A stretch of DNA of 64,000 bases from Jiangella asiatica. Its GTDB lineage: Bacteria > Actinomycetota > Actinomycetes > Jiangellales > Jiangellaceae. The stretch is from assembly GCF_004349065.1 (NCBI RefSeq), contig NZ_SMKZ01000002.1, positions 186,001 to 250,000 of the forward strand, in the 5' to 3' direction. The notes beneath the pieces were generated by a model, which saw nothing but the letters and a program-made list of their open reading frames with translations, had not been told where the DNA came from and did no database searches. Of the stretch, positions 1 to 711 are shown one piece after another. Each line of letters opens with the position of its first letter. Position 1 is the stretch's first letter. The position numbers were made by a program, and so were the translations under genes.

Positions 1-523
1 GCACCTGGCTCTCCGGGGTGCGTGCCCCGATGGCGCCCCAGGAGACGGTGTCGGCGATGTACTGCGGGCTGATCGGCTCGAGGAACTCGCAGCCGACCGG
101 CAGCCCGACCCCGAGCACCTCGAACAGCAGCTCGCGGGCGACGCGCAGGCCGCGCTGCACGTCGAAGGTGCCGTCCAGGCCGGGGTCGTTGATGAGGCCC
201 TTCCAGCCCACCGTCGTGCGCGGCTTCTCGAAGTACACCCGCATGACGACGCACAGGTCGTCCCGCAGCGCGTCGGCCACCGGCCTCAGGCGCTGGGCGT
301 AGTCGAGTGCCGCGGCCGGGTCGTGCACCGAACATGGACCGACCACCACCAGCAGCCGGTCGTCGTCGCCGGCCATGATGCGGCGGACCTCCGCGCGGCT
401 GGACCGGACGAGCGCGGCGTGCTCCTCGTCCATCGGCAGCTCTTCGAGCATCCGGGCCGGCGGCAGCAGAGGCTGGAACCCGGTGATGCGCAGGTCGCCG
501 GTGGGGGAGTGGGGCTCGGACAT
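1..523 (-). CDS. aroG: Class I DAHP synthase, 5' part (runs off the window)
   Basis: 3-deoxy-7-phosphoheptulonate synthase condenses phosphoenolpyruvate with erythrose-4-phosphate, the first step of the shikimate pathway, in the cytoplasm. The minus strand reads from ATG at 523 without a stop to the window edge (about 174 residues). Class I (AroF/G/H) motifs are visible: VVVGPCSVHDP near residue 50, VMRVYFEKPRTTVGWKGLIN near 85-105, LPVGCEFLEP and ISPQYIADTVSWGAIGARTPES near 145-170. The start is supported by AAGGAG seven bases upstream. The C-terminal half lies outside the window. The leader region upstream (590-711) suggests control by attenuation sensing tyrosine/phenylalanine supply. Family assignment is firm; which aromatic amino acid feeds back on the enzyme cannot be read here. 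Confidence 0.93.
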   Translation of the reverse strand, partial: MSEPHSPTGDLRITGFQPLLPPARMLEELPMDEEHAALVRSSRAEVRRIMAGDDDRLLVVVGPCSVHDPAAALDYAQRLRPVADALRDDLCVVMRVYFEKPRTTVGWKGLINDPGLDGTFDVQRGLRVARELLFEVLGVGLPVGCEFLEPISPQYIADTVSWGAIGARTPESQV

Positions 524-595
524 GTGCGGCGTCTCCTTGTCTCAGGTGAGCGGGACGCCCGTGTGGTCACCCGAGCCGGCCCGTCTCATGACGAA

Positions 596-619
596 GGGCA
601 GAGACGAGTGTCTCTGCCC
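596..619 (-). terminator. Attenuator terminator hairpin before aroG
   Basis: GGGCAGAGAC (619-610), loop ACTC, GTCTCTGCCC (605-596): a perfect 10-bp stem with a 4-base loop, about 73 bases before the aroG start. It is followed by TTCGTC rather than a long U tract, which is usual for actinobacterial intrinsic terminators. The 3' arm can alternatively pair with GAGACG at 587-582. Confidence 0.6.
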
Positions 620-623
620 TGCT

Positions 624-669
624 GGCTCCGGGTGGGTCGGTCGATCAGCGCGCGGCTCCACCCGGAGCC
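624..669 (-). promoter_or_regulatory. Alternative stem of the aroG attenuator
   Basis: Minus-strand bases 669-658 (GGCTCCGGGTGG, inside leader codons 10-14) are perfectly complementary over 12 bases to 635-624 (CCACCCGGAGCC), just downstream of the leader stop. The first segment can also fold on itself as GGCTCC/GGAGCC (669-664 with 659-654). A ribosome paused at the Tyr-Phe codons would cover the first segment and change which pairing forms. A clear antiterminator pairing to the terminator arm was not found by eye. Confidence 0.5.
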
Positions 670-698
670 GGCGCAAAATACCTCGATCGACGAACCAC
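645..698 (-). CDS. Putative aromatic leader peptide (17 aa)
   Basis: GTG at 698-696 opens an 18-codon frame reading MVRRSRYFAPAPGGAAR and ending in TGA at 647-645, about 120 bases before aroG. Tyr (TAT) and Phe (TTT) codons stand side by side at residues 7-8; both are A/T-rich codons that are rare in this genome. Placed before an aromatic biosynthesis gene and followed by alternative stems and a terminator-like hairpin, it fits a classical attenuator leader peptide. There is no Shine-Dalgarno sequence, but the -10 box at 706-711 would put the transcript start at the GTG, and leaderless translation is common in actinobacteria. This is inference from layout; no homologous leader was compared. 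Confidence 0.55.
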   Translation of the reverse strand: MVRRSRYFAPAPGGAAR

Positions 699-705
699 GA
701 CGCCG

Positions 706-711
706 ACTATA
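706..711 (-). promoter_or_regulatory. Probable -10 box (TATAGT) of the aroG leader transcript
   Basis: TATAGT on the minus strand matches the actinobacterial -10 pattern TAnnnT. Transcription would start about seven bases downstream, at 698-699, which is the first base of the GTG of the leader peptide, so the leader would be leaderless. No good -35 box is visible about 17 bases upstream. Confidence 0.5.

Follow-up and report, generated by a model that had tools for sequence, protein, structure and literature searches.

The stretch of DNA analysed here (the window) comprises 64,000 nucleotides of the 7.0-Mb, GC-rich genome of Jiangella asiatica (contig NZ_SMKZ01000002.1, positions 186,001 to 250,000). 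Its left edge cuts a gene for a type I (alpha) DAHP synthase of the aroFGH family (aroG), the product of which scores 494.7 bits with TIGR00034 (cut-off 173.2) and also matches PF00793; this enzyme gates entry into aromatic biosynthesis. A gene for an IclR-family regulator lies directly upstream, and the 216 bases between the two genes hold all of the other elements listed for the window in Table 1. For Corynebacterium glutamicum, the sections of PMC11802643 available to us describe an IclR-type regulator, LtbR, that acts on trp, and report a consensus site at a DAHP synthase promoter.

The original prediction, made from the letters of the sequence, had placed a –10 box, a GTG, a 17-codon open reading frame (ORF) with adjacent TAT and TTT codons, a 12-bp stem and a 10-bp hairpin before the DAHP synthase gene, and we find every one of these at its predicted place. 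The –10 element and the leader GTG (698-696) are separated by 7 nt, and among 74 leaders (that of the window counted) this spacing is 7 nt in 57, 6 nt in 12 and 8 nt in 5; a spacing of 6–8 nt was the search criterion itself, so that this distribution is not independent support for a leaderless start. The –10 spacing is the one mark that points to such a start; the transcript would then begin at or next to G698, with the leader translated from its very 5′ end. Consensus scanning of positions 400–1700 yielded no sigma-70 promoter pair, with no recognised –35, and no terminator with a U tract, the tail after hairpin P3 (UUCGUC) being U-poor. P3, for all its perfect 10-bp stem, does not qualify as an intrinsic terminator with a U tract. 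Further downstream a 6-bp hairpin (GGCGTC/GACGCC, 559-554 with 533-528, minus strand) is predicted to flank the Shine–Dalgarno (SD) sequence of aroG. A plasmid search with the leader sequence returned 0 matches.

Table 1. Elements at the aroG locus of the window, and a set of similar leaders named after chorismate mutase (five downstream genes checked)
Element	Position	Strand	Remarks
DAHP synthase, type I alpha (aroFGH family)	2..523	minus	ATG at 523; runs past window edge; 352 codons in whole gene
Small hairpin directly after P3	594-590 with 585-581	minus	predicted fold and consensus fold; no two-sided change
Arm A″, GCCGGCTCGGGTG	568..580	minus	predicted to pair with 634-629, 627-624 and 622-621; would enclose P3
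P3, terminator-like hairpin with weak U tract	619-610/605-596	minus	perfect 10 bp; 11 bp with A620-U595 (595..620)
Stem arm A′, CCACCCGGAGCC	624..635	minus	pairs with A or A″
Stem arm A, GGCTCCGGGTGG	658..669	minus	perfect 12-bp pairing with A′
P1, hairpin inside the ORF, sequestering arm A	674-664 with 659-648	minus	predicted fold
P0, possible protector stem	691-684 with 647-640	minus	predicted fold; codons just before Tyr against stop codon onward
Leaderless-type leader-peptide ORF, MVRRSRYFAPAPGGAAR	645..698	minus	17 codons; stop TGA 647-645
Tyr-Phe sensor codons TAT TTT	675..680	minus	adjacent; from the sequence
–10 element TATAGT	711-706	minus	7 nt upstream of leader GTG
IclR-family regulator	1540-740	minus	same strand as aroG; directly upstream
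Chorismate mutase set	L172-L175, L177-L184, L192-L196		17 leaders, family f15; matches of covariance model R1

Distribution of the leader

The DAHP synthase gene is present in all 12 genomes of the genus (our own included) and in 20 of the 22 genomes of the family, and the leader ORF precedes it at 12/12 genus loci and at 19/20 family loci (genus included), the twentieth of which reads N. A protein search of 393 genomes of the class, which misses divergent copies, found the aroG gene in 86; the leader ORF is present at 56 of these 86 loci, spread over nine families, with 0/27 in family f15 and 56/59 elsewhere, and one of the three missing outside f15 is an unreadable locus. It is also found at 19 of the 26 named actinobacterial loci (among 80 loci). 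For the family of genome G062, where an HMM search finds the aroG gene in 171 of 201 genomes, we read 20 of the 171 upstream regions (allowing a spacing of 5–9 nt) and all 20 carry the ORF.

Altogether 75 of the 112 upstream regions scanned have a leader ORF, or 74 leaders after one exact duplicate is dropped, whereas the unfiltered controls gave 0/112 on the antisense strand and a mean of 0.65 (maximum 2/112) over 20 rounds of mononucleotide shuffling. The scan had first given hits at 86 loci, of which 11 were dropped by hand because the match was the C-terminal end of the gene next door, RE(F/Y)WEEDL, and two more spurious hits (L110 and L156) were excluded by pattern. At least two pairs, L018/L137 and L030/L146, are the same leader twice and were kept, which slightly inflates the counts of 74 and of 60, the latter being the set without the 14 leaders of groups II and VI. 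One Streptosporangiaceae locus (L017) has RWYWRF after a –10 box with no stop within 45 codons and was counted as having no leader. Family f15, in which all 27 type I DAHP synthase genes are without the leader, has other genomes that carry a similar one before chorismate mutase. Of the 22 genomes of family f1, 20 have the type I gene and 21 have a type II DAHP synthase.

The leader ORF and its codons

Read from its GTG start, the leader peptide of the window is V(M)VRRSRYFAPAPGGAAR followed by the stop. Alignment of aroG upstream regions agrees with the original prediction, in that the peptide, its aromatic codons and the stems are kept in close relatives. All 74 DAHP synthase leaders contain Tyr, 72 contain Phe and 58 contain Trp, with all three in 56. 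The aromatic residues fall into a few core motifs, namely YWRF (mycobacteria and others), RWYxRF, YFWF, YRWF and RWYAYF, with RY(x)YF in most leaders of the genus Jiangella; Trp codons are absent from the leaders of this genus.

The choice among synonymous codons is strongly skewed. Codons 1–14 of all 74 leaders include 89 TAT against 5 TAC and 72 TTT against 11 TTC (besides 67 TGG), while 38 aroG frames from the same kind of loci have 1 TAT against 196 TAC and 1 TTT against 296 TTC. The leaders therefore choose the codons that aroG avoids, as is expected of a sensor; in group Ib the TTT also lies within a predicted stem, which may contribute to the codon preference there. The reading frame is kept as well: start codon and arm A lie 29, 32, 35, 38 or 41 nt apart (2 mod 3) in 53 of 54 sequences and 30 nt apart in the remaining one, while the distance from the stop codon to A′ is spread over the three frames (24/24/6). 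Frame and codon choice together argue that the leader ORF is under coding selection.

Covariation of the RNA stems

The 116 nt at 705-590 fold at –66.5 kcal/mol compared with –47.1 ± 3.8 kcal/mol for 200 dinucleotide shuffles (z –5.11), none of which was as low. In 33 aligned sequences 93.4% of the cells of A:A′ are paired with 13 two-sided changes, and 98.7% of those of P3 with 30 two-sided changes spread over 7 of 9 pairs; 0/500 shuffles were as high for either stem, and slid controls for both were far lower. It should be noted that the shuffles leave relatedness in and that kinship inflates covariation counts. Within the group of the window itself A:A′ hardly varies (one two-sided cell, 51/500 shuffles as high). 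In alignment A1, MAFFT misplaced P3 in some rows, which gives the lower count of 91.3% there. A counterpart of P0 is 79.7% paired with 12 two-sided changes in the 21 sequences of the window's group (alignment A1), with 0/500 shuffles as high; because one slid control nearly matches its covariation score (0.172 versus 0.184), P0 is less sure than A:A′ and P3. The counterpart of P1 in group Ib has 94.3% of its cells paired and one two-sided change, with 22/500 shuffles as high.

A:A′ beats the pairing of a shuffled arm A at p ≤ 0.01 in 55 of 60 sequences, and when arms are exchanged between groups the own pair is the better one in, on average, 84.5% of swaps, but it beats all 40 shuffles of the whole region after the stop codon in just 25 of 74. 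A covariance model of A:A′ and P3 (R1) has one significant full-length match in its own genome, the aroG leader (E 1.5e-25), the same locus read backwards scoring E 0.001, and at E ≤ 0.01 it has matches in 79 of the 393 genomes of the class, a count that takes in weak hits and hits read backwards.

The original prediction set the 12-bp stem against the hairpin as alternatives. Both stems are real and covary, but they compete for a few bases at most: in the window they are 3–4 nt apart and have no base in common, and across the 60 sequences the uncapped A:A′ duplex takes 1–4 bases of the 5′ arm of P3 in 31 and none in 29. What the prediction had missed is a third arm at 580-568.

A putative third arm and the predicted switch

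The free leader of the window is predicted to fold as P0, P1 and A′:A″, the last enclosing P3. For 24 of the 60 leaders A′:A″ is better than in dinucleotide shuffles at p ≤ 0.05, and for 17 of the 60 at p ≤ 0.01. Overall, 68% of swaps pair less well than the leader's own arms, a figure that varies with the group: 86% in the window's group Ia, 86% in the RWYAYF leaders, 83% in the Isoptericola type, 71% in the Micromonospora type and 69% for one single leader, whereas group Ib (mycobacteria and kin) shows no such advantage, with 41% of swaps weaker. Among the YFWF leaders (Rhodococcus, Amycolatopsis and others) A′:A″ appears by eye as a simple hairpin with no separate P3, and in one member (L219) it is followed by TTTTTTT, making a textbook terminator, which most of the relatives shown do not have; in a separate set of rows, no U tract was seen by eye after A″. 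Taken together, these comparisons and predicted folds give moderate support to A′:A″, which would be mutually exclusive with A:A′.

When a ribosome is masked onto the first aromatic codon, A:A′ becomes dominant in the predicted folds of 58 of 60 sequences, as compared with 31 of 60 unmasked, which fits antitermination on stalling. With the mask at the last aromatic codon, A:A′ prevails in no more than 21 of 60, although that codon is usually Phe, the amino acid to which the C. glutamicum attenuator is reported to respond; with the mask at the stop codon it prevails in 56 of 60, contrary to simple logic. Neither figure fits the simple scheme. The window's own leader behaves more simply, since a mask at Tyr turns the fold to A:A′ and a mask at the stop favours A′:A″, the latter because this leader is short. 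Simple ribosome-footprint models of this kind account for part of the switching only.

We propose that the element is an attenuator of the aroR type, in which the ribosome controls transcription. The transcript would start at G698 or its neighbour, and leaderless initiation at its 5′ end would set off translation of the 17-codon leader, with the rare codons TAT and TTT reading the supply of Tyr and Phe. If tRNA-Tyr or tRNA-Phe were uncharged, the ribosome would stall, leaving P0 unfolded and P1 loosened, and A:A′ could form as the antiterminator. With both tRNAs charged, A would be kept in P1 or be passed by the ribosome, and the free A′ would pair with A″ around P3, so that the transcript would end in the leader and little DAHP synthase would be made. 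We regard it as very probable that a translated leader here makes attenuation of aroG depend on the supply of aromatic amino acids, whichever hairpin is responsible. The whole mechanism with A′:A″ as the decision is also probable, yet here our confidence is more reserved on account of the small overlap between A:A′ and P3 and of the weak result against shuffles of the post-stop region. As the scan gave no terminator with a U tract, our claim is limited to an element that works like an attenuator of the aroR kind, rather than one with every textbook feature.

The most serious competitor to this mechanism is that P3 itself is the terminator, weakened when A:A′ invades the edge of its 5′ arm by a few bases, as has been proposed for ilvBNC, or that Rho is involved, in which case A″ would be incidental. 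P3 is indeed the best-covarying hairpin, it is followed by 4–6 T within 8 nt in 40 of 60 sequences and, in the chorismate mutase set, 15 of the 16 leaders that were readable by pattern have at least 4 T after it, the invasion could take place in the 31 of 60 leaders noted above, and the published ilvBNC model, in the excerpts of PMC11857589 available, has just such a 'boundary trinucleotide' common to both hairpins. Against this explanation, 29 of 60 leaders have no overlap, an upstream competitor for the whole 5′ arm of P3 does better than shuffles (p ≤ 0.05) in just 1 of 60, and the YFWF group seems to make do with A′:A″. We therefore consider it possible but rather unlikely.

A switch at the level of translation, with sequestration of A″ freeing or trapping the SD sequence of aroG, would draw on the 6-bp hairpin predicted around that sequence in the window (559-554 with 533-528), but the predicted pairing of the SD barely shifts when A″ is blocked (0.51 free, 0.45 blocked, in the 37 of 60 sequences that were assessable) and is 0.41 when other segments are blocked (possible in 21 of the 37). 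Since blocking A″ scarcely alters SD pairing, we rejected SD occlusion as unsupported and hold it to be improbable. The strong and conserved structure could also suggest a tRNA- or metabolite-binding riboswitch or a T-box in place of a translated leader, but the ORF bears coding marks in its frame and codon choice, which makes this very improbable; Rfam gave 0 matches in the window at gathering score, and with a relaxed threshold three microRNA matches far below gathering score. Stems are abundant in GC-rich DNA, and a chance alignment of all these features would still have to produce both the folding energy (z –5.11) and the conservation and covariation seen in relatives, so that chance deserves hardly any credence. 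The attenuator with A′:A″ as its decision thus remains the reading that we prefer, and it makes the locus a case for testing attenuation with weak U tracts and a defined switch that engineers could remove for aromatic production.

Comparison with known attenuators

The attenuators of C. glutamicum, aroR included, are reportedly leaderless, as Neshat et al. are said to have described in 2014. Leader peptides have been named in this species before ilvBNC, trpE, leuA and aroF, that of aroF with Phe-Tyr-Phe, in the portions of PMC4046766 and PMC11802643 available, and the latter reports that the aroF attenuator responds to Phe and not to Tyr. Like the element in the window, aroR has clustered aromatic codons in a leader before a DAHP synthase gene, while by its published description its motif is F-Y-F and that of the window's leader is Y-F with a GTG start. 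A match to TIGR00034 is likewise present in C. glutamicum. Three of our leaders (L201-L203) come from genomes of 2.3–2.7 Mb in the family of G062, which are probably Corynebacterium, and have RFYF with, by eye, corresponding A, A′ and P3. FYF with corresponding stems in these leaders, together with the aroR report, indicates that the element in the window belongs to an already known kind.

The ilvBNC attenuator of C. glutamicum resembles the element in the window in that its antiterminator adjoins the terminator and overlaps it slightly, and its three hairpins (anti-antiterminator, antiterminator and terminator) have roles that can be matched in the window, whereas it uses branched-chain codons and a common trinucleotide carries the switch, in contrast to the overlap of 0–4 bases and the competing third arm found here (PMC11857589, as excerpted). 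The trp attenuators of actinobacteria (Seliverstov et al. 2005, PMC1262725, in the sections available) have a complementary triple common to antiterminator and terminator, as here, but differ from the window's element in their Trp codons and poly-U tracts; according to the same sections, that survey saw no structures conserved upstream of genes for any amino acid pathway beyond those it lists. The original prediction held attenuation with a leaderless leader to be unusual. This is contradicted by Streptomyces lividans, for which seven of the eight attenuator leaders listed in the available part of PMC8079986 are called leaderless; to the extent of this source, leaderless attenuators are common in actinobacteria. 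The S. lividans leaders (trpL, leuL, ilvL and others) share the leaderless start predicted for the window's leader, and several are likewise without a U tract, but they sense other amino acids and none of the eight in Table 4 of that paper precedes a DAHP synthase gene.

Among the open-access listings and excerpts inspected, no paper describes this attenuator outside Corynebacterium. Its spread, its third arm, its codon bias and its versions before chorismate mutase and tyrS genes apparently are new with respect to that literature, and one published attenuator of C. glutamicum becomes a family that extends across nine families of our class sample.

Probable loss of the Trp codon, and similar leaders in the pathway

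One pair of P0 is U-A in seven sequences, C-G in eleven and unpaired in three, and the first base of the relatives' TGG is C (CGG) in most of the window's genus and its sister genus. This suggests that the Trp codon and the partner base changed together, and that Trp was probably lost (to Arg) rather than gained in the window's genus. A second DAHP synthase was considered as the reason for the Trp-free leader and rejected, as the type II enzyme is present in 21 of the 22 genomes of the family, both with and without the Trp codon.

From the R1 matches we fetched 25 places that are not in front of aroG, setting other weak hits aside. Seventeen of these, all in family f15, have leaderless-type ORFs with Phe or with Phe and Tyr, the first 13 residues of which contain no Trp, and make up the chorismate mutase set of Table 1. 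Trp is thus found in 58 of 74 DAHP synthase leaders versus 0 of 17 in this set (Fisher p 1e-9, relatedness left in). A further leader (L176) is similar, has a single Tyr codon (MLTRRVYPNGSG...) and stands before tyrS, the gene for tyrosyl-tRNA synthetase, while the other seven places (L185-L191) had no such leader by eye and were set aside. This amounts to a natural experiment in which the codon set of the leader fits the gene behind it.

As a joint reading, which we offer tentatively and would not rate as the probable one, a single ancestral leaderless attenuator may have spread through the pathway with its codons re-tuned for each gene: Tyr, Trp and Phe before DAHP synthase, Phe/Tyr before chorismate mutase and Tyr before tyrS. 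The same reading would include a two-storey terminator, in which an outer A′:A″ stem encloses a complete inner hairpin, and an RNA stem that outlived its sensor codon when Trp was replaced by Arg and the partner base changed too. A Pfam search with five of the proteins encoded behind leaders of the chorismate mutase set found nothing but chorismate mutase in two, while three combine a partial DAHP synthase-like stretch (over the Pfam cut-off in two) with chorismate mutase.
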